Source of the DNA: Megasphaera paucivorans
GTDB lineage: Bacteria; Bacillota; Negativicutes; Veillonellales; Megasphaeraceae
NCBI RefSeq assembly: GCF_900103535.1
Contig: NZ_FNHQ01000016.1
Span: 1 to 64,000 of the forward strand
Length of the DNA: 64,000 bases
Direction: 5' to 3'
The translations under genes and the position numbers were made by a program. Positions 22,876 through 47,662 of the stretch are shown one piece after another (within the stretch, counting starts at the first letter, position 1; the number at the start of each line of letters is the position of its first letter). Below the pieces are notes generated by a model. It saw only the letters and a program-made list of their open reading frames with translations. It was not told the origin of the DNA and did not search any database.

Positions 22876-22876
22876 C

Positions 22877-27048: not shown

Positions 27049-27474
27049 TTACCTTGCATTATTACATTTCTCACAAATAATTTTCAAACAAACGTCAAGA
27101 TTCGCGTGCACTTGCTTTTCCCAAAAATGAACGGGCAGCCAATTCAATTGTCGCAAAAGTTTATTATTTCGTTTATCTCGATTAATATTTTCTTCTATTT
27201 TTTCGTTCCAGTATTTCTGATTGGTTTTGAGCCTTAATTTTCTATTTTCCCAATCATATCCATGCCAAAACTCACCATCAACAAATATTGCGATTTTATA
27301 TTTCAATATCGCGATATCTGGTGACCCTGGCAACTTCTTGTAATTCAATCGATATCGCAGACCTTTATGCCACAGAGCTTTTGCAAGCATAGTTTCTGTT
27401 TTTCCACCTTTTAAGTGGACATGAGCCATTCTCTTGGATATTTCAGGCGTTGTAATAAAGTGTGGATGTTTCAT
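27049..27474 (-). CDS. vsr: very-short-patch-repair (Vsr) endonuclease
   Basis: 141 residues from ATG 27474, chosen because AGGAGCTATC precedes it and MKHPHFITTPEISKRMAHV is the conserved start; the frame runs further to 27528. The Vsr core reads GSPDIAILKYKIAIFVDGEF followed by WHG, with the catalytic Asp and the aromatic wedge. KLPGS and NINRDKRN are also typical. Vsr nicks T:G mismatches left by deamination of 5-methylcytosine, and usually travels with a C5 methyltransferase. Here dcm-type methylase 32305-33921 is five genes away in the same direction, with an IS200 relic inserted just upstream. Confidence 0.93.
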   Translation of the reverse strand: MKHPHFITTPEISKRMAHVHLKGGKTETMLAKALWHKGLRYRLNYKKLPGSPDIAILKYKIAIFVDGEFWHGYDWENRKLRLKTNQKYWNEKIEENINRDKRNNKLLRQLNWLPVHFWEKQVHANLDVCLKIICEKCNNAR

Positions 27475-27519
27475 GATAGCTCCTATGCATTTGAATCTTT
27501 TCCTAAAATAGTAACTCAC

Positions 27520-28024
27520 AACCACCACTTCAAATGGTGGTTTGTCTTAGTCCTATAAAGACAATTACTTACGCGCCTAAAAGGCGGGCATCGCAAGCAC
27601 TGTTACCAACTTAGCTTCTAAAAGAAACTTTTGATTAGTTTATCTTCTTCCTTGGCATAAATTTCTTGCTCTGCAATGTATTTCCTAATTGCTTCTTCTG
27701 TAACATTACCCACGGTGCCCATGTAATAGCCTCGTGCCCAAAATGCCTTGTCCCATTTGCCAAACATATCGGGATGTAAATCATGTATCATCAAAGCGCT
27801 TTTCCCTTTCAATAATTTCAATATTTTTGTAACCACATAACTTTGGGATGACTTCCTTAATATCTAATCGTAACTTTCCATATAATACCCTTCTTCGGTA
27901 TTTTGGTATAAATACTATATGATATTGGCACTTCCACTTTGCATGTGCTAAATTTAAACTATCCATTTGGATACCCCCATGTTCATGATTTGGCTTGCGA
28001 CACCATAATCATGGTATCATGGGG
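27520..28024 (-). mobile_element. IS200/IS605-type element relic with end hairpins
   Basis: A left hairpin AACCACCACTTCAAATGGTG at 27520-27543 and a right imperfect hairpin from CCCCATGTTCATG to CATGGTATCATGGGG at 27975-28024 bracket a small transposase remnant. Subterminal hairpins rather than inverted repeats are the sign of IS200/IS605 elements. There is no TnpB. It separates vsr from the rest of its cluster, and vsr's ribosome site lies about 40 bp inside the flank. Confidence 0.75.
27618..27966 (-). pseudogene. tnpA: IS200-like TnpA transposase, internally deleted
   Basis: The first part reads MDSLNLAHAKWKCQYHIVFI and PKYRRRVLYGKLR up to GYKNIEIIE. The second part, in the next frame, resumes at LKGKSALMIHDLHPDMFGKW and runs through AFWARGYYMGTVGNVTEEAI. 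The intervening segment, which in the family contains the CPDHIHML histidine-hydrophobic-histidine motif, is absent, and the junction also shifts frame. Without that HUH motif the protein cannot cleave DNA. The second part keeps the EAIRKYIAEQE region that normally holds the catalytic tyrosine area. It behaves as a MITE-like relic. Confidence 0.85.
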
Positions 28025-28099
28025 TTTTTAAGTTCCACGAATGTAACATTACGATTCATTTCATTCTCCCCAGCATAGCTGGAGGATTAGGATTATCCT

Positions 28100-29044
28100 T
28101 CAAACTTTCCTAACATGATATGTTTGAGGTTCTACCAACCAATTTTCTGAAAGCATAATGATACTGGCCGGATCAGATAGAATCATTGGAACATAATCAT
28201 CCTTATTGATTCTTGATAACTCAATAAGATATAAATAATAATGTGTTCCTCTTAATTTTGCAATCTCATATTCATTACTTGACCAATAAAATCCATTCCG
28301 CTCTGAAATAGCTTTTACCTCTATGAATCTATCATAATCAGAGGAATCGTTTGATTCAAAAGAAACAATGTCATAACCAGCACACACATCAACTTCTGAT
28401 ATTATTCGAATTTTCTTCGACAATATGGGATTCGTTATACGTTTTTTTTCATATTCTAAAACATACTTTTCAGCTTTTGCTCCTATTATCGCATTTGCTT
28501 CAAGATTATTTTTTAATTGTTCTAAAGAAACTGTCTTTGTACTTTCTTTGCACAAATTTGAAATAACATCCTCAAATTCAGGATTAACATGAATACTAGC
28601 CAGTATTTTTCGGCTTGTTGTAAAAAAATTTTGACTAATCAGAACATTCCTGATGGTAGAATATGTCAATGGTAATAATTCATTTCGAAATGTAATGTTA
28701 CAATCCTTAATGTCATAGAAAAACATATCAGCTTTAAAAATATTTTGTTTAAATAAGGTGCATACTGTACATTTAATCAACGCATCATTCAAAGCTGAAG
28801 ATGATTCTAAATACGGATAAATATCTTCATTAAGACGTATATATTCATCACATAAAATCCATCCGAAACTCATACAATAAGAAATCAATGAATCAACAGG
28901 TAATTGATATATTCCGGGAGCATGAGAACAGAGTACTCTAATATCGTTCACTAAGAGCACGCGTTTTCCTATAATAGTCCTCAAAAAATATATCAAATCA
29001 TCTTTTTTTCCTGGAAAACTAAGATTTTTTAGTCCTTCTAACAT
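28100..29044 (-). CDS. DUF3883 domain protein, probable nuclease-like
   Basis: 314 residues. The C-terminal third, from about residue 205, is a DUF3883 domain: EVDVCAGYDIVSFES, then DRFIEVKAIS, followed by FYWSSNEYEIAKLRGTHYYL. The D...ExK arrangement is the PD-(D/E)XK pattern seen in this family, which is frequent in restriction and defence loci. The N-terminal 200 residues are helical without recognisable motifs. It overlaps the SNF2 helicase gene by 26 bp, which suggests coupling. It probably supplies the cleavage subunit of the neighbouring methylase/helicase system, but this is inference from context. Confidence 0.75.
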   Translation of the reverse strand: MLEGLKNLSFPGKKDDLIYFLRTIIGKRVLLVNDIRVLCSHAPGIYQLPVDSLISYCMSFGWILCDEYIRLNEDIYPYLESSSALNDALIKCTVCTLFKQNIFKADMFFYDIKDCNITFRNELLPLTYSTIRNVLISQNFFTTSRKILASIHVNPEFEDVISNLCKESTKTVSLEQLKNNLEANAIIGAKAEKYVLEYEKKRITNPILSKKIRIISEVDVCAGYDIVSFESNDSSDYDRFIEVKAISERNGFYWSSNEYEIAKLRGTHYYLYLIELSRINKDDYVPMILSDPASIIMLSENWLVEPQTYHVRKV

Positions 29045-31007
29045 AATCTTTGATCAACGCCTTTATATCATCATCACCAAGGTCTTCCGTAATATTATCG
29101 AATAATGGGATAGGCATGCTTTCCATGATATCATTCATTCGATGTTCTTTTTCAGTCAAACGAGTATCAATAGTCTCATCAATAGAATCTTTTGATAAAA
29201 TATAATAGTAATTTGTCTCTACATCTGGTTTAAGTCCATATCTATGAATACGATCTTTGGACTGTACAAAGTGTGCAACATTGAATGATCTTTCAATATA
29301 AATTGCATTATGACAAGCTTTATGCAAAGATATCGATTCAGCTACGGCAAATGGATTCGCGATAACAACTTTATATGAACAATCAGGATCTTGAAACTCT
29401 TGCACAATTCGTTCGCGTGTTATGATTTGACTTTCACTATCGTTAGACAAACCCTCGTTTTCAACAGGTATAGCACCATATAATTCTTGTGATTCGATGC
29501 CTGTTTTTGCAAGATATTGTTTGAGACCAAGAATCGTATGAACAAATGTGGCCCAAACCACTACCTTGCCTCCACTAGCAATAATTTTTTCTATAAGTTC
29601 TTTAACTACTTTATATTTTATCGGGGTTTCTATTTTTTCATAATCTATAATAGATCTCATAATATTGGCATCATTTACAACTTGATATGCTTCTCCAGGA
29701 CACTCATCATCTTCTAAAAATTCCTTAAGCGGAGCTTGTAACATTGAAGGATCTGTCGCCGTTTGCATCAAACGAATCACTCTCGCTTTAGCAAGCATAG
29801 CTTTGAAACGAGAAGATGTATCAACTGACCCATCTTCTATCATTGCATCAATATATTTTTTTTCAATAAAATCATATATGCGTTGCTGTATTAGACCCAT
29901 ATTAACCTTAATAGGAGGATGCACAGTCTCTTGCGGTATCTTCAAATCACTTTTTTTGATACGGATAAAATAAGGTGAAATATTGTCAATCAAACGATTT
30001 ACTCGCGGATCACTTCTTCTAGCAGTCATATCTCGTAATTGATTAACTCCAAATCCAATAACATTTTTATCTGGCCAGATAAATTTAAACATATTATAGA
30101 GATCTTCATATCCGTTAGGCGCCGGCGTACCTGTTAATACAACTCTTGCTCTGCAATACCTCGCTAAGCTAAGAATAGCCTGTGCAATTATTCCTCCTGA
30201 AGAATTTTTAGCCTTGTGAGCCTCATCAAGAACGACCATGACTTTGTTATTACGTAAAAAGTAACCAATGTCGTCTTGTAAAGATACTACTGAAGCATAC
30301 GAAATAAGAGTTAATTCAACTGTATGTTTTGAATACAAATAATTCTGCTTATCTTCCTTACTTATTCCACTAATAAGACGTTTGACATCTGGTTTATGAC
30401 CAAAACATTCAGCATATTCCAATTCCCAAGGTCCAAAAGCGCTCAATGGTCCTACTATCAACAACTTATCGATATATTTTACATCATCAGTAAGAAGATG
30501 ATGTAAATATGCATATGCTCCATAAACGATACTGGTTTTCCCTGCACCTGGAACGGAAAAATTGCAAGCATTTTGTGAAAATGCTAAATGATATGCCGAA
30601 AGTAACTGCAAAGGATACAGAGACCTGTTAGACAATTCATGTACAACAATATTAGTAAATTCCTGAAATTCAACTGTATCACACTTGTTGTTTCTGATAA
30701 GGCAAGCTTTTTTCGAAAAAGTTGTGAATTGGCGTTTTTTTTCATAAAAATCATTAAGAACTTTTTCTGAAGATTTACTCTCGACTTCATTAAATTTATA
30801 CTTAGCTAACATCTTGCTGACCTTTGATAATATATCCATTATATCATTATTTCCTACAGAAATAATGATTTTTGAATCTTCTACAGTCGGATGTAGATAA
30901 TCTTTCATATATCCCCATGCAAATCGGTGTTTTCGTAGAGCATCGACATCTCCAAGTAAATATATTTCTTTTTTTTGAGAATCTACATTTATAGATATCG
31001 TAGCCAT
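29019..31007 (-). CDS. SNF2-family DEAD/DEAH helicase
   Basis: 662 residues from ATG 31007, which has GGAGTTGAG upstream; a longer start at 31046 would overlap the ParB-like gene. Motif I is FSVPGAGKTSIV around residue 150, motif II is VVLDEAHKAKN, motif III is LTGTPAPNGYEDLY, and the second RecA lobe ends in QSKDRIHRYGLKPD. A C-terminal segment follows (DSIDETIDTRLTEKEHRM). The fold is a SNF2/RapA-type translocase. In DISARM and related systems such helicases move along DNA to expose targets. It is between the ParB-like and DUF3883 genes, all on the minus strand. Confidence 0.9.
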   Translation of the reverse strand: MATISINVDSQKKEIYLLGDVDALRKHRFAWGYMKDYLHPTVEDSKIIISVGNNDIMDILSKVSKMLAKYKFNEVESKSSEKVLNDFYEKKRQFTTFSKKACLIRNNKCDTVEFQEFTNIVVHELSNRSLYPLQLLSAYHLAFSQNACNFSVPGAGKTSIVYGAYAYLHHLLTDDVKYIDKLLIVGPLSAFGPWELEYAECFGHKPDVKRLISGISKEDKQNYLYSKHTVELTLISYASVVSLQDDIGYFLRNNKVMVVLDEAHKAKNSSGGIIAQAILSLARYCRARVVLTGTPAPNGYEDLYNMFKFIWPDKNVIGFGVNQLRDMTARRSDPRVNRLIDNISPYFIRIKKSDLKIPQETVHPPIKVNMGLIQQRIYDFIEKKYIDAMIEDGSVDTSSRFKAMLAKARVIRLMQTATDPSMLQAPLKEFLEDDECPGEAYQVVNDANIMRSIIDYEKIETPIKYKVVKELIEKIIASGGKVVVWATFVHTILGLKQYLAKTGIESQELYGAIPVENEGLSNDSESQIITRERIVQEFQDPDCSYKVVIANPFAVAESISLHKACHNAIYIERSFNVAHFVQSKDRIHRYGLKPDVETNYYYILSKDSIDETIDTRLTEKEHRMNDIMESMPIPLFDNITEDLGDDDIKALIKDYVRRTKKS

Positions 31008-31012
31008 TTTGC

Positions 31013-32305
31013 TCAACTCCGATCTAATCGCTTCTTCATCGTCCACGTAATATTATTGATTTCTCTAACCATGTCCTTGATACGTGGATCAGTAGAAAAG
31101 CTATCTTGCTCACAATCAACTGCCTGCAATGCTCCAAGTGCTCTTTCTATAAGTTCTACAGGTTTATGCGAGTCTTGTTGGTCTTCAAGTTTTCTAGAGA
31201 ATCTTCGCAGATTTCCTTTAAGAATCCCTTTTGATTGTCCAATCCAATCATTATCTCTACTTCTTAACAATTTACTAAGGTCCTCATGGGGATGTTGTTT
31301 GCGTAATTCGTCAACAGATTCTTCATCCCCCGGAGTTTTTGCTTGATGTTCTTGTAAAAACGCTTCCCAGAGTTCCTTATAAAAGAAAATGCTTCCGTCT
31401 TTTCCTGTCTTTGCGATATCACGAAACTCTTTTCCTTCATATCGAGCACGTATATAATCAAAACAAACTCGTTTTAAATCCGAAATATCAGAATCAGAAT
31501 ATGTCCAATTCATATTTCTGATATTTGCACCTTGCTTTTTATAAGAATCTAAATATCCTTCCAAATCAACAAAAGGTCCCTCTGTTTTTTCAAGACGGGT
31601 ATATATACCATCATAATCATATTCTCTTAAATATTCCTCCATGAGTTCCAAAATTGAAAGCCATGTTTTGATTTGTCCAGGTTTTTCATTCATAAAACCT
31701 GCAATATCTTCTTCTGAAAAGCCAACCTGTTTGAGTCCTTTACATTTTAAATATTTTTCTATAGGATTGTAATCTAGCTTGTCGTCTTCACCCATCTGAT
31801 AAATAGTTTCAAGCTGTTGAATATCTCTTTCTTCTGCATCATCCGGAAGAATTATAGCAAGAAAGTATCTGCAATGTTCAACTTGTCCCAACTCATAACC
31901 AAGTTCTGTACGCTTATGAAACAGACGATTGAGCAACATTGCCCGTCTATTTCCATCAATAATAATACCATTGGAAGTAACTATACCATAACGCTGTTGT
32001 CCATTCTGGCATAAACTTCTCATAGTCGTTTTGTTCCTGTCTTCTTTTGATTCATAAAGAAATTTTTCTATTATCTTACAATCATCATCGTTTTCTGCTT
32101 TAAGAACACCATTTTGTTTTTCGTAAGAAAGAACATCAGAACCAATACGCCCATTATATTTATTGTAAATCAAATAATCTAGCGGGATACGGTAAACATT
32201 TTCCGTGAGAGTGGCTCCTTTGTAACGAAGGGGTATCCCTGTCATAACCGGTTTCTGGTTATTTCGCAATTCCATAAGTTTTTCTTTGCGTGTTGAAGAA
32301 TCCAT
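31013..32305 (-). CDS. ParB/Srx-fold domain protein of defence-type cluster
   Basis: 430 residues. The N-terminal ParB-like fold includes NVYRIPLDYLIYNKYNGRIG and IIDGNRRAMLLNRL at residues 115-128, the DGNRR motif of ParB/sulfiredoxin-type nucleases. A long helical, charged C-terminus follows. It shares its first base with the last base of the methyltransferase gene and lies six bases before the helicase start, so it belongs to that operon. It is too far from a chromosomal parAB setting to act in segregation. A nuclease or a DNA-loading role is a guess. Confidence 0.8.
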   Translation of the reverse strand: MDSSTRKEKLMELRNNQKPVMTGIPLRYKGATLTENVYRIPLDYLIYNKYNGRIGSDVLSYEKQNGVLKAENDDDCKIIEKFLYESKEDRNKTTMRSLCQNGQQRYGIVTSNGIIIDGNRRAMLLNRLFHKRTELGYELGQVEHCRYFLAIILPDDAEERDIQQLETIYQMGEDDKLDYNPIEKYLKCKGLKQVGFSEEDIAGFMNEKPGQIKTWLSILELMEEYLREYDYDGIYTRLEKTEGPFVDLEGYLDSYKKQGANIRNMNWTYSDSDISDLKRVCFDYIRARYEGKEFRDIAKTGKDGSIFFYKELWEAFLQEHQAKTPGDEESVDELRKQHPHEDLSKLLRSRDNDWIGQSKGILKGNLRRFSRKLEDQQDSHKPVELIERALGALQAVDCEQDSFSTDPRIKDMVREINNITWTMKKRLDRS

Positions 32306-33921
32306 TATTTAAGACCTCCCATTTCTTTAATAATGTTATCAAGAAGATAGTAACCAATGATAATTGCTTGCGGCAAACACTGAGGGGAACTCCCAGTTGA
32401 TATCATATCCGTCCATGCCGCCTTAGGAATAGCTTGTTTTATAAATAGTTTGATATCATCTAATAATTCATAAGGACCAAACTGATTTACATCATACCGT
32501 TGCGTAGTTGTCATACAAAAAAGTTCTTGGAATCTATTATATGATACAGCTTGCATAATTTTATTTTCCAAGTACTCATTAACACGTTCTCTATAAACAT
32601 TGTCAATTAAATCGTTCGTAATAGTCGGTGTAAACATAGCGGCTTTATCTTTCCCTTGGCTATAATGTAATTCAACATCCCAACGAAATCGTTTATTTTT
32701 AAAATCTGAATGGTAATTTGTCAACTCAACTCGATAAGATGAAAGAATCAGGTACGGGATATGATATTTGAATTTTGCAACTGTTCTTTTAGGTTGTTCT
32801 GTTTTTAAAGAAAATTTCATTCCGTTCAAATTCACGAACTTAATTGCTTTGTCATGTTGAATTGGAATGTACTGATTTGGTATTTCTTCATTATCGTCAA
32901 GTGCAATTGCTTTTGCTATTGCATATGCCATTTTGGGCGGTACTGCGTTTCCAACAAGCGTATGTTTTGTTGCTTTCGTTTTTCCATAAAACCAATAGTC
33001 TATAGGAAAACTCATCATTGATGCCGCTTCTCTTACAGTAGGTAATCTATATCGCTTATTCCCATATTCAAAAATCATTGCTTCACGTGAACTCGCTGAC
33101 ATTGTCGCTAAAACTGTCCGAGCAGGTTTATCAAGATTTTCCGGGAATGACATTCGTCCCATATACCCCTTATCTTGTTTCAGTCGTTTAGCAACTTTCC
33201 ATTCAAACGGTGCTAGTTCATATATGTATCTATGATCAGTCATTTCCTTTCTAGTAAGTGTTAGATTAGGGTAATTTATATCAGTAATTGAAGTATTGAA
33301 ATTTGCTAAAGGTTTACCTAAGGATGCAAGCACAGAACGCAACTTTACTACATCATCATCTGTATGCGTTGACTGAGGTTTCGGAAATTCGCCGCACAGA
33401 TAACGTTTGCGATTTGTAGGCGCGCCAAAATATTTAGCATTGTAAATCCCAGACTCTCCTCTATTGGGATGTAAAGTGAAATCACCAAGTAGTCCTAAAT
33501 CCGCCGCAGTATAGTCATCATAAATATACTTTTTTACATTTGGCACATTTTCCAATACCCAATACTTAAGAATTGAATTCGGTTTGTATTTTTTCCTCGC
33601 AACAATTCGTAAATATGCTTTTATAAGTTTGATGCCCAAGGTTTTATCCGCATTCCCAGATTTATTAGACTGCGAAAAAGCTTGACATGGAGGGGAACCT
33701 ATGATTACTTCTGAATCTGGGACTAATTGTTCAAATGCTTCATCATCAAGCTCAGAAATTCTAATAACATCATCTTGAATAACATTTACACCAGGTTTAT
33801 TTCCTTTATATGTTGTAACTGCAGGCATCCACTTGTCTACAGCAAATACTATTTGAAATCCTGCTTGGCGAAATCCCTCAGAGAAACCACCTCCTCCACA
33901 AAAAAAATCTGCAACTCTCAT
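32305..33921 (-). CDS. DNA (cytosine-5) methyltransferase
   Basis: 538 residues, longer than most C5 methylases. Motif I FFCGGGGFSEGF is at residues 6-17, catalytic Cys79 is in GSPPCQAFSQS, ENVPNV is motif VI, GAPTNRKRYL is motif VIII, REAASMMSFP is motif IX and LVGNAVPPKMAYAI is motif X. About 180 C-terminal residues extend past motif X and are not recognised. The target sequence cannot be predicted. It is the first gene of the cluster MTase-ParB-SNF2-DUF3883-(IS)-vsr and would mark self DNA. No close canonical restriction subunit is seen apart from the DUF3883 protein. Confidence 0.93.
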   Translation of the reverse strand: MRVADFFCGGGGFSEGFRQAGFQIVFAVDKWMPAVTTYKGNKPGVNVIQDDVIRISELDDEAFEQLVPDSEVIIGSPPCQAFSQSNKSGNADKTLGIKLIKAYLRIVARKKYKPNSILKYWVLENVPNVKKYIYDDYTAADLGLLGDFTLHPNRGESGIYNAKYFGAPTNRKRYLCGEFPKPQSTHTDDDVVKLRSVLASLGKPLANFNTSITDINYPNLTLTRKEMTDHRYIYELAPFEWKVAKRLKQDKGYMGRMSFPENLDKPARTVLATMSASSREAMIFEYGNKRYRLPTVREAASMMSFPIDYWFYGKTKATKHTLVGNAVPPKMAYAIAKAIALDDNEEIPNQYIPIQHDKAIKFVNLNGMKFSLKTEQPKRTVAKFKYHIPYLILSSYRVELTNYHSDFKNKRFRWDVELHYSQGKDKAAMFTPTITNDLIDNVYRERVNEYLENKIMQAVSYNRFQELFCMTTTQRYDVNQFGPYELLDDIKLFIKQAIPKAAWTDMISTGSSPQCLPQAIIIGYYLLDNIIKEMGGLK

Positions 33922-35283: not shown

Positions 35284-38200
35284 CTATTTCTTTTGCTGAG
35301 TAATAACTTCAGTAATTGGGGCCTTCGTAACATGGTGTGGAATGAATGGATCATCATCAGGAGTAATCGCAGCTGACAGCCAACTCTCGGGGCCAATTTC
35401 CCATGCGTTTTTTATTTCAATATCATTTTTTAATATTGCATAATCAACGGCTAACTCTGGACGATTATCTTTTGGATTCATATAAGACGGCATAAGATAA
35501 TACTGTTTCCCTCGTTTTAGAATTATATCCTCAAAATTTTTAAAATTATCATCATTATTAGGGGTCATTCTTTGAAATCTATTAGCAGTAGTTATATATT
35601 TATTATTCCCAGACATCAGAACATCAAGGTTCGCCCCAAAAATCATTTTGTAATGAGAAAGATTATTTTTATTTATACCTTTTATTAACCCAACCGTTAT
35701 AATATTTTTTTCATCAACTTTACCAAACATAGAAATCCATTCTTTAAAAATTGAAATTCCTGCATCTTTATTTGTAAAAAATGGTGATAAAATAGGTATC
35801 CCTTCATAACGTTCCCGACTTCTGACAAAAATAACACCCTGCCATCTTGCTTTATTCCACAATGAAAGATTAATCATTGAAACTACTTCCATGTTTTTGT
35901 GTCTAATATTTTCTGGATCAAAAGTACCTGGTGGAAACGCATGCCAAGTTAATTTATTAAACTTCACTGCATCAGCGTCGTTTGAATGCAGATTATCCTG
36001 AAATTGTACTGGAATATTCCTTTTAAGTGTATAATCTGTATCATCCATAGATATAAAATTCATTAGAATCATGGAATTTTTACCAAATAAATCTTCAGTC
36101 AAGAAAATACTACCCGTAAAATCTAATGACCTATCAAATACATTATCTTCTTCGATCATTTTTTTTATCTGTGTTTTAGAATCCTTAAATATTAAGATGT
36201 GTGCCATCAATTTCGCGATGAAATCTAAGATAACCCTCTTAGTAAGGTGTTGCGCATGACAAAATTCTTCCTTATGAAAATCAGAACAAATTATGTTATA
36301 TTTTTGACTACCCACTTTATTATAAGATATTTTAAATTTTTCAGAAGCAACATATTTTACAAATATATGCACTTTGGGAGTAACACTAATAATCTGATCA
36401 ATAGGTGCTGTTGCAAGAAAACTCTCAAGTGCAGCCAAAATACTTTCTGATAATTCGATACATGGGAATTTTTGATCAGCTTCAATAATAATATTGCATC
36501 CTAAAATTTTTGACTGTAATAATTCAATATTATGCAATCCAAGTGTTGACACGTTGGTTATTTGGTCTTTTGCAGGTTGATTATACCAATCTTTCATAAA
36601 CTGATGAATTTCATTGGAATTTCGCCCTACAAAAAAAGATTTATCAATATAACCTAATGTATATTTCAAAGCAATAGATGCCATATATAATTGATATTTA
36701 TCCAGTAAATCAGGAAGTAATGATAATTTCGGCAATTGCTCAAATGGTACTCGCAAAAATAACATTCCTAAAATTGTATCAAATAAATCCATATTATTTT
36801 CAGTTTTATTTATTTTGCTTGTATCGTAACCAACTGAAGAAAGTAAGCAACAAGAAATATTATCCATCTTATGCCACGCAAGCAATTGAGGAATCCGTCC
36901 AAGCCTTAATTCTACCATTTTCATACTAGTAGAGGAGGCAACTAATACCGGACTTAAGCGGTCATATTTCATATAATCTATAAAGCCAATATAAAATGCA
37001 TTAAAGTAAAATCCTCTAGAGGCCCATAATAGATCCAAATTTTCACAAGCATGACCTATTAAGAAAAGAGCTAGCAAAAAATCTTCTTTACTTTCTTCTT
37101 TATACAAACTAAACACGGCTCTACCAATATAACGAACTGCCTTAAATGGTTTTTGATTAACTAATTGCTGCCCACGCGTTAATAAAAGTTTAGCAGATAT
37201 AATTTCTTGTTTTCTATTATTTGTCATCGCTACGATAGTTTCGAACAACTTATCAAAACTATTTGATTCTTCCACCTGTGGGGCTAGTTCCATAATGATT
37301 TTTGAGATTGTATCAAGGCTAAAATCAAGAACACCCTGACTTTCGGTGATAATAGAAGAAAGTTCCTCAAATAGTACATTAGCATCTTGACCAAGTAATA
37401 ACTTTACAAAAACATAATTTGCCTTAGCTTCCAAAGCTGAATTGGGACGATTTTTATCATTAATTAGTCTTTCATATTCGGATATTAGTTTCTCTGTATG
37501 CATTCTTATTCTTTTTTCACTGGAATTTTTTTTTGAAATTATAAATAAATTGATCCAAAGCTTCGTCAAACATTCTATATCATACACATTGCTTCCACCA
37601 ACAACAAGCTTTTCATAGTCACAATATTTATTATAGAATTCGTCAAATTCTTCATACCAATAATAAAGAGTCTGTGCTGATTCATAAACACATTCTTTTC
37701 GTTGAACAACTGTACCATATTTATCCGCTAGAATTATAGCTCTATTAAATTTTCCCATGGTTTCCGCAAGTGACCGCTCTAATTCTCTACTTAGTATTGC
37801 GGCATTAATGGCCATTTGGACTATAGATCCATTTTGAACCCCATCGGCAATTAAATTTTTTATCTCATTTTCTAAAGTATCTAATTCTTTTCTGCGTTTG
37901 TAATCTAAAGGTCCAACGTTTATTATTTCCTTAAAAGATTCAGACAATCCAAAAATTTCTGCAGCAACTTGTTCATTATGATTATTAAACACTTTATCCA
38001 ATAGCCATAGTCTGTCCAATATTTTAACTTGTACACTATATTTTTTTGTTAACTCATCTTCCGTAATAGCTCTTTTCTTATCGGGAACGTATTGATTGCT
38101 CATAAAAAAAATTGTTGTGTAATTTCTGTCAGTAGATAAAATATTTTTGACATCAGCTACAATTTTTGATTTCCAATCTTTCTTAGCACTAAATGCAAAT

Positions 38201-38529
38201 GCCCATCTTTCAGATGCAGCTTGTCTCCCAATTCCAACATACCAAGTTAATGCCGTGTTATCTGACACAGGATAAGTCTCAGAATCAACTTTGCTATCAC
38301 CACCACCAGTTGGGCCTGTCTGAGAGATTAAATTAGGACATATTTCTAGTTCAGCTAAACGTTTACAAAACAATTCAAATGTTTTCTCTTCGTTTCGATT
38401 TGTTAAACTTTCAAGGTAATAGTCAAAAAAATTCCTATCTAATTGTGCTTTTTGTAATTCAACAGAATCCGAAAATTGATTTGGTCTTCTTGATTTTAAA
38501 AAGTCATATGGAGATACTGACTTATCCAT
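35284..38529 (-). CDS. large Mrr-type nuclease plus helical-repeat protein, candidate defence factor
   Basis: 1081 residues. Near the N-terminus an Mrr/restriction-endonuclease-like core is visible: TFELFCKRLAE (residues 50-60), QTGPTGGGDSKVDSETYP (70-87) and WAFAFSAKKDWK (109-120), which follow the E...GGGDxxxD...xxK pattern. Residues 200-700 are predicted helical with TPR-like character and no obvious ATPase motif. The C-terminal region (about 850-1081) is a mixed alpha/beta unit with AFPPGTFDPENIRHKNMEVV. It is the only large gene between the two halves of uvrX. No partner methylase is linked. The layout of nuclease effector plus repeat sensor is typical of single-gene phage-defence proteins, but this is inference; no named system is matched. 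Confidence 0.6.
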   Translation of the reverse strand: MDKSVSPYDFLKSRRPNQFSDSVELQKAQLDRNFFDYYLESLTNRNEEKTFELFCKRLAELEICPNLISQTGPTGGGDSKVDSETYPVSDNTALTWYVGIGRQAASERWAFAFSAKKDWKSKIVADVKNILSTDRNYTTIFFMSNQYVPDKKRAITEDELTKKYSVQVKILDRLWLLDKVFNNHNEQVAAEIFGLSESFKEIINVGPLDYKRRKELDTLENEIKNLIADGVQNGSIVQMAINAAILSRELERSLAETMGKFNRAIILADKYGTVVQRKECVYESAQTLYYWYEEFDEFYNKYCDYEKLVVGGSNVYDIECLTKLWINLFIISKKNSSEKRIRMHTEKLISEYERLINDKNRPNSALEAKANYVFVKLLLGQDANVLFEELSSIITESQGVLDFSLDTISKIIMELAPQVEESNSFDKLFETIVAMTNNRKQEIISAKLLLTRGQQLVNQKPFKAVRYIGRAVFSLYKEESKEDFLLALFLIGHACENLDLLWASRGFYFNAFYIGFIDYMKYDRLSPVLVASSTSMKMVELRLGRIPQLLAWHKMDNISCCLLSSVGYDTSKINKTENNMDLFDTILGMLFLRVPFEQLPKLSLLPDLLDKYQLYMASIALKYTLGYIDKSFFVGRNSNEIHQFMKDWYNQPAKDQITNVSTLGLHNIELLQSKILGCNIIIEADQKFPCIELSESILAALESFLATAPIDQIISVTPKVHIFVKYVASEKFKISYNKVGSQKYNIICSDFHKEEFCHAQHLTKRVILDFIAKLMAHILIFKDSKTQIKKMIEEDNVFDRSLDFTGSIFLTEDLFGKNSMILMNFISMDDTDYTLKRNIPVQFQDNLHSNDADAVKFNKLTWHAFPPGTFDPENIRHKNMEVVSMINLSLWNKARWQGVIFVRSRERYEGIPILSPFFTNKDAGISIFKEWISMFGKVDEKNIITVGLIKGINKNNLSHYKMIFGANLDVLMSGNNKYITTANRFQRMTPNNDDNFKNFEDIILKRGKQYYLMPSYMNPKDNRPELAVDYAILKNDIEIKNAWEIGPESWLSAAITPDDDPFIPHHVTKAPITEVITQQKK

Positions 38530-39549: not shown

Positions 39550-39738
39550 ATGAAAGCAGTAGCAATCACTAAAACCGTACTTCATGTTTCTGATGCAGCA
39601 TGCCTTATGAATTGCAGTGCCGGCAAAGTATACAATTTAATCAGATCAGGAAACCTTGATGCCTACAAGGTTGGAAAAGCATGGTTGATCACCGTAGACG
39701 CCTTGGATAATTATCTGCACGTTAAAAGCCACCAGTAA
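39550..39738 (+). CDS. excisionase-family (MerR-like HTH) DNA-binding protein 1
   Basis: 62 residues. LHVSDAACLMNCSAGKVYNL and then IRSGNLDAYKVGKAWLIT is the winged helix-turn-helix of excisionase/AlpA-type proteins. GAAGGGAGG precedes ATG. It is on the plus strand, unlike nearly all large genes here, and is followed by a second gene of the same type 120 bp on. It could control integration or phage-like functions. Confidence 0.85.
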   Translation: MKAVAITKTVLHVSDAACLMNCSAGKVYNLIRSGNLDAYKVGKAWLITVDALDNYLHVKSHQ

Positions 39739-39858: not shown

Positions 39859-40044
39859 ATGTTTGAAATGTACGAGGATCTCGTAACCGTCGAAGAGTTT
39901 GCTGATATGCTATCCATCGGAAAAAACGCTGCCTACAAGTTATTAGCATCCGGTAAAGTAAAGTGTTTTCGACAGAACCGCATTTGGAAAATTCCAAAAG
40001 AAGGAGTGATACAATATATCCGTGAACAAAGCCATTTGTCATAA
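39859..40044 (+). CDS. excisionase-family DNA-binding protein 2
   Basis: 61 residues from the ATG at 39859, chosen by AAGAGGTGCATCATC before it (the frame is open from 39826). DLVTVEEFADMLSIGKNAAY and LLASGKVKCFRQNRIWKIPK form an excisionase-type helix-turn-helix. It is a paralogue of the preceding gene in domain type but not a simple duplicate. A terminator hairpin follows at 40101-40126. Confidence 0.85.
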   Translation: MFEMYEDLVTVEEFADMLSIGKNAAYKLLASGKVKCFRQNRIWKIPKEGVIQYIREQSHLS

Positions 40045-40100: not shown

Positions 40101-40132
40101 AAGGACTTGGGCATTTCCAAGTCCTTATTTTA
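40101..40132 (+). terminator. terminator after the excisionase-like genes
   Basis: AAGGACTTGG, six-base loop, CCAAGTCCTT is a perfect 10-bp stem followed by ATTTTA. It is 56 bp after the plus-strand stop and borders iteron element C. Confidence 0.75.
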
Positions 40133-40135
40133 CGC

Positions 40136-40233
40136 TGTCCACATCGTCCTAATTGTCCTCGAGTTATAAAACCATCTAATATCCATTACTATGCCCTACC
40201 AAATTTAGGTGGACAATACGGACACATAGGACA
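40136..40233. repeat. bilateral iteron element, copy C
   Basis: Boxes TGTCC/CGTCC/TGTCC start at 40136, 40145 and 40154, and GGACA boxes at 40211, 40220 and 40229. The centre includes GTTATAAAACC and ATGCCCTACCAAATTT. It is 25 bp from the stop of the 688-residue gene. Copy D is a close direct repeat of it, also through the centre. Confidence 0.9.
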
Positions 40234-40258
40234 AACACACTCGCTACAGCAATCATTT

Positions 40259-42325
40259 TTATTTACCAAACAAATAAAGACATATCATTCTAAAATAAGG
40301 ATCTTCGACATGCTTATTACATGCGGTATATAAAGGTGTTCTTACTTGCTCATTTATGAGTGTATCAATATCATTTATCTTTGATAATAAATTATCCATA
40401 TCTTGTAATTCTCTAATTTTTTTTACTAATATATCCCCCATGAATTCCATACAATGCCCCCATTCCGGATAGCTCTGAGCCCACCCTAAATCATACATTA
40501 TCTGGGCATACACGAGTCCCCGTAAAAAATTGTATTCATGTGAGTCAGCATTTAAAAATTTAACCAATATTGTATGCAATGATCTTCCTTCTCTTCCTCT
40601 CTTTTTTCCATAATAATCCTGTACTGTTCCTACATCCCCCATTAAATTATCCATTGCTCTATCTTCCAATTGCATAATAGCTATCAAGATCTTTAAATCA
40701 CATTGAATTATTTTTTCCTTTTCTGGTAATCCGCTGTGATATTGGTCCATATATCGATAGTGTTTAACGGCCTTATTCAATATTTTCTTGAAATCATTAT
40801 GAATAAATTGCGAAGCTTCTTTTTGATGACATATTAAAAAACGATGCGCTTCTTTCATATTCCCCTTACCAAACGAAGCACACAGAGACACAAATATAGT
40901 TCGCTGATTAGCATTAATAGGTTGTACAACAGGTTGTGTCTGTCTATGATGTAATTTAGTTTCCGTAATCACAGAAATAGCTTTTTCTTTCACAAGTTCA
41001 ATAGCAAAAACTTGGAATAAGTATTCATCCGCAACTTTCACCAGTTGCACTGTATCATTTGTTTGACTTAATAAATCCTGCAAACATTGCGCAATATAAT
41101 GATAATATTGTCTACCCTGATCGTCTATATTACTTTTATATACATATTGCCCTACGTCATGGTTAGAAATTCCATGCATAAAATTCAAGCAATAATTTCT
41201 ATCTGTCTTCTGCATTATAAGCAGCTTCAAAATCAGCGCATAATACTGGTAGTATTGTATAACCTCATGCAAACATTGCCGTTTCACTTCTGTTAATAAA
41301 AATATCATAATTTCATTCTGCTGACGTTGTTCTTCAGTAAAGGGTTCTTCAGTAAAGGGTTCTTCAACATAATTTACCGGATTGCTAAATAAAGTTACAT
41401 GGGGATTACTTAAAAGTTTGTTCAAATTAAATGTGCATCGACTTTTATCATTATTGGAATGGTCGTTTTTCCTATCATCTATACCACTCTCCCCCCATTC
41501 ATACTGAATATATTCCAGCAAATTGCATAATTTCCAACACTGTGAGTTCTGATCACCTTTTAACTTTTGAAATTCCTGTAAAGATATATGGAATTGTTCG
41601 AATAAATTACAAATAGGAGAATCTTTATCTCTGCGATCCTGTATTCTTTTTTTTAATTTCTGGTAAGGACGGTATTCTTCTGGTTCTATTAAAGGATCGT
41701 TGAAATCATCTCCTGACGGTTCTTGCCATTTATCTTTATCAGATATTTCTTCAGGCGTATGTATATACTTATATACGTCTTGGCAGCAATAATCAAAAAT
41801 TGATTTACCATATTTTAAATGTACATGCTCCAAATAAAACTCAAGCAAAAATGCACCATGTACATCCCCAATCGCAGGTAACCAAAAGGGTATTTTAATG
41901 AGCTCTTTAAACTGTTTTTGATAAATAATTAGACATACATCTTCATTTTGATTGCTTTCTATTTCTTGAAGTATTTCCCTTGAAATTTTTACAATTTTTC
42001 TTAATCTTTTTGTAAGCTGTTTTTGAAACTGCTTTTTCTTATTGTGTACCCATTCGATTTTTCCAAACTTATCCAGTATAATGGATGAATTCAAGATCCA
42101 ATAAATAAAGTTGTTGATTGCTTGATTTTCACTTTCCATCGTACTCCTAAATATATCATCAGTTAAATTCTCCATTGACTTATACCATTCCTTCTCTGAA
42201 TAAAAAGAAAAGGGTAACACTACTCCATAAAGATGCACTGAAAAATTATTATAAAATTGCCTGGCATTGTAAAGAAAATCCTCGTATTTCTTATTAGCAT
42301 CATCATTAGTGCAATAATCATTCAT
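40259..42325 (-). CDS. 688-residue protein of unknown function
   Basis: A large intact frame with GAGGAG upstream of ATG 42325 and overlap ATGA with an upstream leader frame. It is mostly alpha-helical and rich in Lys, Gln, Asp and His, with no Walker, nuclease, methylase or membrane motifs I can name. Residues about 320-333 contain the short tandem EEPFTEEPFTEE, caused by a 15-bp DNA repeat. Both ends are flanked by iteron elements: C is 25 bp past the stop, D is 280 bp before the start. It could be a cargo, accessory replication or defence protein; nothing in the sequence decides between these. Confidence 0.7.
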   Translation of the reverse strand: MNDYCTNDDANKKYEDFLYNARQFYNNFSVHLYGVVLPFSFYSEKEWYKSMENLTDDIFRSTMESENQAINNFIYWILNSSIILDKFGKIEWVHNKKKQFQKQLTKRLRKIVKISREILQEIESNQNEDVCLIIYQKQFKELIKIPFWLPAIGDVHGAFLLEFYLEHVHLKYGKSIFDYCCQDVYKYIHTPEEISDKDKWQEPSGDDFNDPLIEPEEYRPYQKLKKRIQDRRDKDSPICNLFEQFHISLQEFQKLKGDQNSQCWKLCNLLEYIQYEWGESGIDDRKNDHSNNDKSRCTFNLNKLLSNPHVTLFSNPVNYVEEPFTEEPFTEEQRQQNEIMIFLLTEVKRQCLHEVIQYYQYYALILKLLIMQKTDRNYCLNFMHGISNHDVGQYVYKSNIDDQGRQYYHYIAQCLQDLLSQTNDTVQLVKVADEYLFQVFAIELVKEKAISVITETKLHHRQTQPVVQPINANQRTIFVSLCASFGKGNMKEAHRFLICHQKEASQFIHNDFKKILNKAVKHYRYMDQYHSGLPEKEKIIQCDLKILIAIMQLEDRAMDNLMGDVGTVQDYYGKKRGREGRSLHTILVKFLNADSHEYNFLRGLVYAQIMYDLGWAQSYPEWGHCMEFMGDILVKKIRELQDMDNLLSKINDIDTLINEQVRTPLYTACNKHVEDPYFRMICLYLFGK
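41329..41367. repeat. 15-bp tandem repeat inside the 688-residue gene
   Basis: The unit GTTCTTCAGTAAAGG occurs twice and then in part. It translates in the gene frame to repeated EEPFT. It keeps the frame, so it changes length in steps of five residues. Confidence 0.9.
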
Positions 42326-42528
42326 AAAAAACGCTCCTCATATTTAGCTGGCTCAACCCTATAATACTTATCCATCATCTTACCCACATTCAAACACATG
42401 TAAATGGTACAAATGAGAATAATCCTATTAATCTTCTTTATTATAACTGATATAACAAAAAAGAAAACACGTGTTACACATAATAAGTCCCAACTTTTTC
42501 TAAGATTAAATTTAATAAAATCAAGCAA
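42322..42528 (-). CDS. possible leader ORF upstream of the 688-residue gene
   Basis: A 68-codon frame from a TTG start, or a shorter one from an internal ATG, ends in TGA overlapping the next ATG (ATGA). The middle is very hydrophobic (VFFFVISVIIKKINRIILIC). No start has a strong ribosome site. It might act by translational coupling, or be chance. Little else can be said. Confidence 0.3.
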   Translation of the reverse strand: MLDFIKFNLRKSWDLLCVTRVFFFVISVIIKKINRIILICTIYMCLNVGKMMDKYYRVEPAKYEERFL

Positions 42529-42606
42529 AGACCTACTTCACATCAATAAATAGATAGTCCTTTAAAACCTTTTTAGAGTTATGATGTTACTGTTTCCGTT
42601 ACATGC

Positions 42607-42703
42607 CGTCCATATTGTCCTAACTGTCCGCAGGTTATAAAACCTATAATAACTACAATTATATGCCACTAAATTTTTACGGACATTGCGGACAAATAGG
42701 ACA
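42607..42703. repeat. bilateral iteron element, copy D
   Basis: Boxes CGTCC/TGTCC/TGTCC start at 42607, 42616 and 42625; GGACA boxes start at 42681, 42690 and 42699. The centre has GGTTATAAAACC and ATGCCACTAAATTTT, close to copy C in sequence and in orientation. On its right side it is only about 30 bp from the truncated reverse-transcriptase remnant. Confidence 0.9.
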
Positions 42704-43547: not shown

Positions 43548-44741
43548 CTAGCTGGATATTTTTTTTATATTATCGAAGGTAGTCGTTATCGATTGATTGA
43601 TGACTTCCTTATTTTCTTCTATTGCATGCCCGTAATAGTCCAAAAGCGTAGACGCTTTGCTATGTCCGGTACGTTTGATAATGTCCGGCAAGGAATGCCC
43701 GTTAATCATCAGTTGAGTAGCAAAATACCCGCGCAGATCGTGAAAACGCATCGCTTCAATGTGGTGCCTGCGAATAAAGTTAGTAAACCAGTTCGAAATG
43801 GTATTTGGCCGCATTGGAGTACCATCAGAAAGATAAAAGATTAGATCATACGGGTTCCACTGCTTACCTGCATGTTCTTTAATATGTTCAAATTCGCTTC
43901 TAGCTTCCTTGAGCATCGATCTGAGCTGCGGTATGACATAAATATCGCGTTGACTATTTTCGGTTTTCGTATGAGGATATAGGTAAGTTCCTTTTCCCGG
44001 CGTATATTGCACGGTTTGATGAACGTGTATTGTATGGGCTTCTTCGTCATAATCATTCCACGAAAGACCCAACACCTCCCCCTCCCGACAACCAGTGGTA
44101 AGATCCAAGAGAATCAGCAGCTGATAAGTATGATTCTCTTCCGTAAGCGCGATAAAAAGCTGTCGGATTGTCTCTGCCTTGAAGATTTTTGGTGCTTTAG
44201 GCTTCCCCTTGGGTGGATCGACCTTTTCCATGGGATTCGACGGAATCTGATCCAAACGATATGCGGTACGCATGATATGACCAAACAAATAATATACGGA
44301 TTTTACGGTCAATGGACTAAGGCGTTTATCATTAGACCGACGTTGTTTTTCATTCCGTTTTTCCGTCAATAGCTTTGCTAAAAAATCGGTGATCATAGCA
44401 GGTGTAATATCTTTAAGCGCCACATTTCCTAAATTCGGCTGTATGTATCTATCAATTAAGCGCCGATACGAATCGACCGTACGAGGTGCTAATTTTTCCA
44501 TTGCAGCATACTTTGTTAGCCAGTCTTTTGAAAAGGCTGTGAGAGTCGCGCTTTCGGTGTTAACGTCATATTTTTCAAGTTCAGATAGCCAGAGGCCCAG
44601 CTGATGCTGGGCCTCTGATTTATTCCGTGCTTTAACTGTCTTGTCGCGGCGTATTTCCTTCCCTTTGGGATCATATCCAAAGCGAGCAGTTAAAACCCAC
44701 TTATCGGATGTCCCTTTCTTACGTCGAAACGTACCCGTCAT
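43548..44741 (-). CDS. int: tyrosine recombinase / phage-type integrase 2
   Basis: 397 residues from ATG 44741, which overlaps the excisionase stop (ATGA); the open frame upstream to 44819 is ignored. The motif set is complete: Arg in TTGCREGEVLGLSW, His-x-x-Arg in FHDLRGYF, His in GHSKAST, Tyr in LLDYYGHA. The N-terminal MTGTFRRKKGT and most of the body resemble integrase 1 at 15505-16701, so the two are paralogues from related elements. It would excise and integrate the element carrying the replication protein. The tRNA-Ser at 47.6 kb is a possible target, as is common for this family. Confidence 0.93.
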   Translation of the reverse strand: MTGTFRRKKGTSDKWVLTARFGYDPKGKEIRRDKTVKARNKSEAQHQLGLWLSELEKYDVNTESATLTAFSKDWLTKYAAMEKLAPRTVDSYRRLIDRYIQPNLGNVALKDITPAMITDFLAKLLTEKRNEKQRRSNDKRLSPLTVKSVYYLFGHIMRTAYRLDQIPSNPMEKVDPPKGKPKAPKIFKAETIRQLFIALTEENHTYQLLILLDLTTGCREGEVLGLSWNDYDEEAHTIHVHQTVQYTPGKGTYLYPHTKTENSQRDIYVIPQLRSMLKEARSEFEHIKEHAGKQWNPYDLIFYLSDGTPMRPNTISNWFTNFIRRHHIEAMRFHDLRGYFATQLMINGHSLPDIIKRTGHSKASTLLDYYGHAIEENKEVINQSITTTFDNIKKISS

Positions 44742-44941
44742 GATGCATCCTTCTTCCCCTGTGTATCCAGCCATTCCTGCAATTCTTTCGGCCAAATCAA
44801 ATATTTGCCACGGATACAATGAAAAGGCATTTCTCCCGATTTTGCCATCGACAAGACCGAATAGTATGATAACTTCCCGTAAAAAAATTCTTTTGCCACT
44901 TGCTTTGGATTGAGCGGTGCATCAAAAGTAATCATGTCCAT
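44738..44941 (-). CDS. xis: excisionase-like HTH protein
   Basis: 67 residues. LNPKQVAKEFFYGKLSYYSV and LSMAKSGEMPFHCIRGKYLI then WPKELQEWL is a small winged helix-turn-helix of the excisionase kind. AAGGAGGTCCGAG precedes ATG. It overlaps the integrase start, so both are translated together, a layout typical of xis-int. It probably directs the integrase towards excision. Confidence 0.85.
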   Translation of the reverse strand: MDMITFDAPLNPKQVAKEFFYGKLSYYSVLSMAKSGEMPFHCIRGKYLIWPKELQEWLDTQGKKDAS

Positions 44942-44991: not shown

Positions 44992-45327
44992 CTATAAACT
45001 GACTCCCGGCAACAACAGCGTATCTCGTTGACCTTCATTATCAAAATCAGGATTAAAATACAATTGGTTTAATGTTAACCGTTCCGGTAAACATGGAATC
45101 TGCTGTGTTGGCCGATACAGCATCATATAGCGAGTAATATAGGCTGATACGGCATATTGATTAGCCTGCGTCAAATCGTCAAATTCCCAGATTGTAATTT
45201 TGAATAATTTTCGAACTGCCTGCAAAAGCATATATTCATTATCGACTATGCATAGACCATTATTACCGATTACGGCGTAATACTTCATTTCTTCCTGTTG
45301 ATATTCACTTTCATTAAAATTAATCAT
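44992..45327 (-). CDS. small element-encoded protein of unknown function
   Basis: 111 residues from ATG 45327, one base after the stop of the replication gene, with GGGAGG upstream (the longer frame to 45375 is inside that gene). MKYYAVIGNNGLCIVDNEYM and FDDLTQANQYAVSAYITRY faintly recall viroplasmin/RNase H1 N-terminal domains, but this is not certain. It is probably co-translated with the replication protein. Confidence 0.6.
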   Translation of the reverse strand: MINFNESEYQQEEMKYYAVIGNNGLCIVDNEYMLLQAVRKLFKITIWEFDDLTQANQYAVSAYITRYMMLYRPTQQIPCLPERLTLNQLYFNPDFDNEGQRDTLLLPGVSL

Positions 45328-45328
45328 A

Positions 45329-47281
45329 TTATATTGCCTCCCTATTCTTTTCAATCGTTTGACGACAAAGTTCATCCTTCAAACACAACATTCTAGGCCG
45401 GCCAGGAATCAGGCTGCTAGCCTTTTTTAAGCAACCGGTAGTATCATGTTCAATTAAGTTTTTTGCCTTGAGGATTTTACACAACTCACGTTCACTGATT
45501 CCCAAATGATCATCTTTTTGCCTATAGTAATCGGATGCTAAAACATATGAATTGCTTGCCTGCAACATAATGGTCTCTTTATCCCAATATCCGCGATACT
45601 GAGATAAATTCGCAATATAGTGGGATAAGTCCGAAGCAATTTGTAATTGTCCGCTACCCATGCAATCATATAATGCAACAAGAAATTTGACCTCAGGTCG
45701 TAAAGGATTTGTCTGTTGGTCCTGACGAGAAACAAGGTCAAAAATAGTCTGATGAACATCCTGAACCCACTGGCTAGCTTCTTCATTCGTACTAAGACCT
45801 GCTTCTTTAAGAAATTGAGCCATGACATAAGCTGTAATAGTCATGGCAATACCGGTGTCTTTTAAGCGGTCAAACTTAAATTTTTTCTCCGTCTGACGCA
45901 TACAATTAAACGTTGATTTGATATATCCTACTATGTTGGCATAATTAGCTTCAACATAATAGATAAAAGCAGACCAAAACTGTTGTAATAGTTGCGGATT
46001 ATCCTGAAATAAAGTTAGTATATTTTCATTTGGCAATGTATCAAAGTACACTTTCAAATACCGCACAGATGCCGATAAAATTTCCCCCGCAATTTCTTCT
46101 TCGGCTGTAAAGACACAACCACCACGTATGCAGTATTTTCTAATACGATTTGGGCCTGCATACATCGCCTGCGGCGTCTTATCGCTATACGCCCTGACAA
46201 GATGATGAATTTTGTTGATGACAGCTTGAATTTGAATTTTAGTACCTTCTTCATTAAAATCGTCAACCACAAAAACATCATCCCGGTGTTTTCCATGCAA
46301 AATTTTCATACTTGCTTCTGTTGATCGTACTGTATATGCTTTATCTTCTTCCGAATCAAATGGTGCAAATATGACGCGGAACAAGCTGGTCTTCTTCGAT
46401 CCACTGCAAGCAACTGCCATCAACGTATGCTGAATAGGGTGTTTAGCATCCGTGAATAGTGCATCTAAGAAAGCTTCTGCTTGATATAGCATGAGAGGGT
46501 ATACAACTCTCTTTCCTGCGATTTGAAAGACTTGTAATGCAGTTTTCAAATCTGCAGTCTTAATGTTTTCCATCGCAACTAATTTTTTTACCGACAGACA
46601 ATCATTTCTTCCACCATGTAAGAAATACCTGGTGCCATCTGAACGTTTATGACTCCAGCCAAAATACGAATATTTTTCCGTAACTGGACCTTGATATTTT
46701 CCGTACAACAGTGACAAAGCATGTTTAAGACATTCTTTTGCTGTACGCACACGTTCAGAAAATAAAGTACATTCCGGAATATTACCATCAAGAAAATGCA
46801 TTAAAGATTTATACCTTCTTACTGGAATAGGAAACTCGTATTTTTTACTATCGACAATAATCATCAGATTAACACTTTCGGTTCGGTTATCCTCTTCATC
46901 AATAGATACATATTTTTCCTGAATGTACACACTAAAATTTGAAAAACGAACGATCGTATCATTATGATTGATCATATACAATCCATCCGTCCCAAGATAG
47001 TACCCATCTCCCAACTCCTGTAATGTTGAAGTAACTGGTAATTTTCCCGGTGGTTTGACAATAGATGAAGTCATGCATCTGTTGTCATCACCAGGGATAG
47101 TGCCTAGCGACATACGTTTCATACCCAGTGTTGGCATAATCGACGAAATTTTCTTACTTTCCGGAATTGTTTGATTAAACCCTTGTACACGAGTAGCAAC
47201 GTCGATTTTTCCGTTTTTTGCTTCCGGTACTACTCGAGCAACACGTTTTGCAACTTCAATTTTGTTTTTGTCTTCTGACAT
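45329..47281 (-). CDS. DUF927-like replication/primase-helicase protein
   Basis: 650 residues. A P-loop-like ACSGSKKTSLFRVIFAPF is near residue 287 and DVFVVDDFN near residue 333 looks like Walker B, giving a DUF927-type ATPase. The upstream part has GDGYYLGTDGLYMINHNDTI, and the end has a winged-helix-like region (GISERELCKILKAKNLIEHD). Such proteins act as replication initiator/helicases on integrative elements and phage satellites. ATG follows AAGGAGGCAATG. It is the first gene of rep-orf-xis-int and starts 290 bp below the tRNA-Ser. Confidence 0.7.
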   Translation of the reverse strand: MSEDKNKIEVAKRVARVVPEAKNGKIDVATRVQGFNQTIPESKKISSIMPTLGMKRMSLGTIPGDDNRCMTSSIVKPPGKLPVTSTLQELGDGYYLGTDGLYMINHNDTIVRFSNFSVYIQEKYVSIDEEDNRTESVNLMIIVDSKKYEFPIPVRRYKSLMHFLDGNIPECTLFSERVRTAKECLKHALSLLYGKYQGPVTEKYSYFGWSHKRSDGTRYFLHGGRNDCLSVKKLVAMENIKTADLKTALQVFQIAGKRVVYPLMLYQAEAFLDALFTDAKHPIQHTLMAVACSGSKKTSLFRVIFAPFDSEEDKAYTVRSTEASMKILHGKHRDDVFVVDDFNEEGTKIQIQAVINKIHHLVRAYSDKTPQAMYAGPNRIRKYCIRGGCVFTAEEEIAGEILSASVRYLKVYFDTLPNENILTLFQDNPQLLQQFWSAFIYYVEANYANIVGYIKSTFNCMRQTEKKFKFDRLKDTGIAMTITAYVMAQFLKEAGLSTNEEASQWVQDVHQTIFDLVSRQDQQTNPLRPEVKFLVALYDCMGSGQLQIASDLSHYIANLSQYRGYWDKETIMLQASNSYVLASDYYRQKDDHLGISERELCKILKAKNLIEHDTTGCLKKASSLIPGRPRMLCLKDELCRQTIEKNREAI

Positions 47282-47571: not shown

Positions 47572-47662
47572 TGGCGGAGTGGCAGGGATTTGAACCCTGG
47601 CGGGCCTTACGACCCCTAACGATTTAGCAAACCGTCCTCTTCAGCCACTTGAGTACCACTCC
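47572..47662 (-). tRNA. tRNA-Ser(GCU)
   Basis: The minus strand starts GGAGTGGTACTCAAGTGGCT and ends with GGTTCAAATCCCTGCCACTC followed by CGCCA-type CGCCA. The long variable arm (GGGGTCGTAAGGCCCGCC) and G26-like stem identify a class II serine tRNA. The anticodon GCT is at 47626-47628 (minus strand). The 3' CCA is encoded. It borders the mobile region and is a usual integration target for tyrosine integrases. No second copy of its 3' end was seen within this window. Confidence 0.93.

Follow-up and report, generated by a model that had tools for sequence, protein, structure and literature searches.

In a 64,000-nucleotide stretch of the Megasphaera paucivorans genome (contig NZ_FNHQ01000016.1, positions 1 to 64,000; here called the window), four short repeats, sites A to D, lie within one 32-kb island that also encodes a Rep-like helicase, and a gene for a 688-residue protein lies between C and D. 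We think it probable that the four repeats are Rep-binding, origin-like sites of a replicating integrative element, of the type known from Staphylococcus aureus pathogenicity islands (SaPIs) and phage-inducible chromosomal islands (PICIs), rather than the ends of mobile cassettes. They are read in this way because they match the SaPI/Cch2 layout and because the island has a Rep of that fold. On the best reading of the individual copies, C is the conserved site, D is a diverged copy, and A and B are further copies in the recombination operon.

20976-21070, plus strand: site A, found by strict pattern scan, with the same 3+3 iteron architecture, between the DUF1281 and ERF genes
21869-21964, plus strand: site B, found by strict pattern scan, with the same 3+3 iteron architecture, between the exonuclease and DUF1281 genes
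40105-40135, plus strand: terminator-like hairpin AAGGACTTGG-CATTT-CCAAGTCCTT followed by a T-rich stretch, just left of C, of the plus-strand xis-like gene; kept in the congener Megasphaera sp. UW_MP_MEG2_1 (G001)
40136-40233, plus strand: site C, three TGTCC-type iterons (9-bp period), a 52-bp centre and three inverted GGACA iterons; kept in G001
40259-42325, minus strand: 688-residue protein without family match, encoded between C and D, in the slot of a large gene beside rep in related elements
42607-42703, plus strand: site D, architecture as in C, a direct repeat of C, 282 nt upstream of the start codon of the 688-residue protein
44992-45375, minus strand: small 127-residue protein adjoining rep, in a position like that of LP1413 beside Cch in pattern 1 of the staphylococcal cassette chromosome (SCC); any identity with LP1413 is tentative
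45329-47281, minus strand: 650-residue Rep-like AAA+ helicase with the fold of SaPIbov1 Rep and SCCmec Cch, the probable initiator

Each site consists of three 5-nt TGTCC cores at 9-bp spacing, an AT-rich centre of about 50 bp and three inverted GGACA cores. The strict pattern used in the scan, (GTCCN5)x3, a gap of about 50 and (GGACN5)x3, matched four times in the window and never in dinucleotide shuffles, and A, B, C and D are the only such sites in the whole 2.9-Mb genome. The centres contain 66-80% A+T, compared with 62% for the window. A preliminary description of this DNA had presented C and D as direct repeats of about 97 bp, in the same orientation, around one gene. This observation is confirmed, with 79% identity between the two copies and the 688-codon open reading frame (ORF) between them; its significance, however, lies elsewhere than was proposed there. 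The centres of C and D were also said to be alike, and indeed they are 73% identical, a value equalled in 0 of 500 shuffles, although the two blocks quoted in support differ slightly between the copies: the first reads GGTTATAAAACC in D and AGTTATAAAACC in C, the second ATGCCACTA in D and ATGCCCTA in C. Other pairs among the four sites have no convincing likeness in their centres, and that of A and B is at chance level. Between the window and G001, most of site D is 93-97% identical, versus 50-93% in most flanking bins.

The 650-residue protein has no Pfam match and its gene lacks annotation. Its predicted model (predicted local distance difference test score, pLDDT, 81) best matches SCCmec Cch (5dgk, Z 22.8) and SaPIbov1 Rep (8tch, Z 22.6) over about 450 residues, and the next structures are MCM proteins with Z scores of 15.6 and below. 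Some of its homologues are fused to DnaG-type or Prim-Pol primases. Searching the PDB sequences with the Rep profile returned nothing useful. On the strength of the model, the protein is probably an initiator helicase of the SaPI Rep kind.

The published PICI origin has two iteron sets flanking an AT-rich region, a layout described as unique to PICIs (PMC6092414). The window sites share this layout with the origins of SaPIbov1 and EcCICFT073, and the cognate Rep helicase fold matches the 650-residue protein. They differ in being four and dispersed, in their 5-nt cores at 9-bp spacing with strict 3+3 mirror order, and in their placement, as C follows the 688-residue gene and not rep, while rep is at least 2.6 kb from D. 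No phage-satellite packaging or interference genes were recognised among the island ORFs searched, many of which remain without assignment. SaPI Rep and SCC Cch2 bind short iterons through their C-terminal domain, SaPI Rep apparently as two hexamers, and Cch2 needs 5-nt AAGTG iterons located downstream of the SCC pattern 2 operon (PMC7581432). The SCCmec Cch operons (LP1413-Cch in pattern 1, CCPol-MP-Cch2 in pattern 2) resemble the island in that an integrative element encodes an MCM-like initiator-type helicase with a small ORF next to it and, in pattern 2, has iterons of 5 nt. However, SCC elements carry Ccr serine recombinases, whereas both recombinases found in the island are tyrosine integrases, at a tRNA gene. 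The Salmonella genomic island SGI1 is likewise an integrative island with an iteron origin and offers a precedent for replication once excised, from an oriV located behind rep (PMC7433901). Its initiator is of the RepA_C type, and its origin has four 17-bp iterons and a DnaA box without mirror arrangement. Because the position behind rep and the Ccr recombinases are both lacking, we file the island neither as a PICI nor as an SCC element.

The sites also follow the Rep helicase from element to element, and this favours origin or Rep-binding DNA over cassette ends. Forty-one Rep homologues were fetched with their flanks, scanned for 9-bp iteron pairs and placed on a tree; weak sites came from mismatch scans. 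TGTCC-type sites occurred with six of the eight members of the clade to which the window Rep belongs and in no other clade, TTTNNC-type pairs with 6 of the 13 members of a second clade and in no other, and the remaining homologues had neither type. Shuffled DNA gave 0 to 0.2 sites. Among the labelled rows the Rep tree needs one change of iteron state, compared with three on the exonuclease and DUF932 trees. The chance that all six TGTCC elements fall into the 8-member clade is 28/4,496,388 (6e-6) if relatedness is ignored, a figure that is overstated given shared descent. A stronger point than this statistic is a natural swap seen in the sequences: the exonuclease and DUF932 genes of L240 (TGTCC) are sisters of those of L200/L248 (TTTNNC), yet the Reps fall into different clades, and it is with Rep that the iteron type agrees. 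We rejected an assignment of the sites to the ERF/exonuclease/DUF932 module, since 69 of 380 Negativicutes genomes have the exonuclease and only 6 the TGTCC sites. The TTTNNC sites, which share the 9-bp period and the 3+3 mirror order, belong to related elements of Negativicutes and lie at L248:6558-6654, L254:3382-3485 and 4676-4778, L256:13602-13704, L259:10923-11020 and L251:6399-6481; the two in L254 flank a NikA-like and a relaxase gene.

On this reading, Rep (45329-47281) would bind the TGTCC iterons, probably in the form of two oligomers that face each other; once the island had excised, Rep would melt the AT-rich centre, and replication would follow. Auxiliary copies of the site could serve copy control or regulation.

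Several observations weigh against this interpretation. The covariation of Rep and iteron is partly shared descent, and the weak sites came from scans that allowed mismatches. Three draft Anaerovibrio genomes (G180, G183 and G186) have a TGTCC site and no TGTCC-clade Rep was found in them; within the clade, L237 has no site (its contig ends near rep) and L239 has only one arm. In the window, the Walker A motif of Rep is degenerate (SGSKKTS). The sites are not directly behind rep, D being 2.6 kb away and C behind the 688-residue gene, and four of them exceed the need of an origin. A and B, finally, are close to gene starts and so may have a regulatory role too.

The position of C relates to the usual place of the site in other elements. 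C lies 26 nt behind the stop codon of the 688-residue gene. In elements of the TGTCC clade the site follows a large gene adjoining rep by 22 nt (600 residues, L155), 20 nt (705 residues, L239), 4 nt (649 residues, L241) or about 100 nt (622 residues, L240), and in the TTTACC-type element L256 it is 17 nt behind a 789-residue gene. The position of C fits this pattern. Since C lies where related elements have their site behind the large rep-adjacent gene, we suggest that the 688-residue gene belongs to the replication region and is not random cargo. Position is all that it shares with the slot genes of L155, L239, L241 and L240, because the proteins have no detectable relatedness: a profile of the 688-residue protein matched neither of the two large slot-protein families nor any of the 1255 ORFs of the collected loci. 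The protein likewise had no match in Pfam, PHROGs, NCBIfam, PADLOC, phages or plasmids, and its AlphaFold model, built from two sequences, was uninformative (pLDDT 32). Among several hundred class- and phylum-level genomes searched, a homologue was found in only one congener, G001 (79% identity), where it also sits between C and D. The slot proteins of L155, L239, L241 and L240 (L155:13425-15227, L239:8264-10381, L241:9943-11892 and L240:12754-14622) form one fast-evolving family with a weak Xre/Cro-like helix-turn-helix (HTH). A second family fills the same slot in L248, L251, L255, L244, L257, L261 and L262. A short basic motif, YGxKRG, was noticed by eye in both the 688-residue protein and the 680-residue protein of L254.

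Could the sites instead be operators or architectural sites for another protein of the element, such as the HTH_17 excisionase-like protein or the large HTH-bearing slot protein, and control transcription or excision? A and B lie 30-60 nt, D 282 nt and an Anaerovibrio site 222 nt (DUF932) before gene starts, HTH_17 proteins are encoded beside C, and the slotT proteins bear the weak Xre/Cro-like HTH. Even so, we regard this explanation as unlikely, if deserving of serious thought. C is placed between convergent genes, with the plus-strand xis-like gene on its left and the 688-residue gene on its right, and a second, related Anaerovibrio site is placed likewise, so that, as had been argued in the preliminary description, an operator role alone is insufficient for C. 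In addition, slotT proteins are present in elements without TGTCC sites (L264, L260, L201 and L266) and track the motif worse than Rep does, and no homology to them was found for the 688-residue protein.

A related proposal keeps the Rep-binding function and gives it a second consequence: several dispersed initiator-binding origin copies would mark the borders of exchangeable modules, and Rep binding or replication, together with the ERF/exonuclease pair, would drive the swapping of modules and cargo. We give this only an outside chance. Some modularity is real, as the comparison with G001 makes plain. This congener has the 688-residue gene, C, D and site B, the last on contig C1, and a paralogous recombination module on its contig C23 is without B; the gap between the exonuclease and DUF1281 genes measures 174 nt with B and 49 nt without it. 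Sites can thus be discrete units that are present or absent. At the place of A, both G001 copies have another inverted element, with TTTCAC at 9-bp spacing. The point at which one Anaerovibrio strain diverges from three others is precisely the first iteron of its site, and right of D the homology between the window and G001 breaks.

The same breaks, the replacement at A, the present/absent state of B and the 79% identity of the C/D direct repeats could be taken to mean that C and D border a mobile cassette, in which the 688-residue gene and a site are exchanged or excised by recombination between direct sites. This we consider quite improbable; excision between C and D lacks support, and the modularity is no evidence of it. 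The genomes searched gave no C/D locus that was empty or filled in another way: C/D are present in just two genomes, and both hold the same gene between them, unlike what would be seen with a pdif-module-like cassette. The proposal that A/B and C/D make two independent mobile gene-plus-site units is likewise unsupported: A and B are alike only in their iterons, their centres being unlike, and the sites vary with Rep and not with the recombinase; the integrases of the window and of G175 belong to different families. Moreover, the 688-residue gene occupies the slot of the large gene beside rep in related elements and so looks like backbone.

That the sites are a self-moving, palindromic repeat resembling a miniature inverted-repeat transposable element, with 23-bp inverted ends, is very improbable. 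B is an insertion of about 97-125 nt relative to the C23 module of G001, and the ends are inverted in 3+3 order. Against this, the copies have only the 5-nt cores in common, not the N4 spacers or the centres, none was found outside the island, and no clear target duplication was seen at B. It is hardly credible that the sites act as RNA, as a long terminator or attenuator hairpin: the inverted arms, the gene-gap position and the terminator-like hairpin adjoining C would suit it, but the N4 spacers are unpaired in the window sites, as checked on the sequences, C already has that separate hairpin at 40105-40135, and the 9-bp period and the covariation with Rep fit DNA binding.

TGTCC sites were also found in phages and prophages. 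A scan of GTDB contigs gave 33 loci. In several of these, of prophage or phage-like character, the site is found where a primase-helicase gene has its 3' end (L111, L115, L116, L124, L127, L132, L136 and L139). These sites have the identical 3+3 TGTCC/GGACA order around a centre of about 40-60 bp (e.g., L111, L115, L132, L136 and L139), and their place at that gene end, in prophages and viral contigs alike, counts in favour of the origin-like reading; they differ from those of the window in being single in each element. L041, L050, L051, L088 and L107 have further 3+3 sites, placed at the 3' end of phage or prophage primase-helicase genes or close to it. The helicases at the phage and prophage sites are of the DUF5906 or AAA_25 type, from several bacterial phyla, and the site centres are often alternating CGCGTATACGCG. 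These helicases have no clear sequence relation to the window Rep, and a profile link between that Rep and the phage DUF5906 primases was rejected, as it covers the P-loop region only (probability 27). The Planctomycetes and Thiosymbion loci from the scan look unrelated; in Candidatus Thiosymbion (L113, L120, L128, L129 and L140) several near-identical palindromic repeats of about 90 bp, with TGTCC/GGACA arms, are spread over different scaffolds and probably form an unrelated family. Most of the 101 viral-contig matches of a loose pattern were discarded because they lie in coding repeats (GGTCC/GGACC) for collagen-like Gly-X-Y stretches. When the pattern was built on TGACC cores as a control, it had 2 viral matches versus 8 for TGTCC; therefore other cores exist, at lower frequency.

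The island extends from tRNA-Ser to about 15348; its probable bounds are the tRNA-Ser anticodon loop and a repeat of it that matches in 16 of 17 nt. Its other features are as follows.

15348-15364: probable attachment (att) repeat CCCTAACGATTTAACAA, a 16/17 match to the tRNA-Ser anticodon loop, 140 nt from the 3' end of integrase 1
15505-16701, minus strand: tyrosine integrase 1, at the left end of the island
20320-24993, minus strand: recombination module with ERF (20320-20946), DUF1281 (21088-21810), exonuclease (21988-22875), RadC (23115-23747) and DUF932 (23857-24993)
39550-39738, plus strand: HTH_17 excisionase-like protein, 62 residues, encoded near C
39859-40044, plus strand: second small excisionase-like ORF, 61 residues, convergent with the 688-residue gene; kept in G001
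43548-44819, minus strand: tyrosine integrase 2
47614-47630: probable att repeat CCCTAACGATTTAGCAA, inside tRNA-Ser(GCT) at 47572-47662

The search of island ORFs turned up no relaxase. A relative (G300, L197) has NikA-like and relaxase genes between its two sites. A GGDEF-domain protein (diguanylate cyclase) at 19011-19976 adjoins ERF and is 86% identical in G001. Genes for Vsr, a protein with a NO VEIN C-terminal domain, an SNF2 helicase, a 430-residue unassigned protein and a C5 methylase stand in a row at 27049-33921, within the island, and probably make up a restriction-modification or defence group. The 1081-residue ORF at 35284-38529 has no match in Pfam, PHROG, NCBIfam or PADLOC.

No Pfam family names a Rep of the window type, and the sites fall outside gene annotation. 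The 5-nt core, the 9-bp spacing and the 3+3 mirror order form a readable code, by which initiator-binding sites and their cognate Rep helicases can be found in integrative elements of gut and rumen Negativicutes. The layout that was called unique to PICIs (PMC6092414) recurs here in a tRNA-integrated island, its relatives and prophages, and the natural swap, in which the same recombination module is joined to a different Rep and a different iteron, makes initiator specificity testable.
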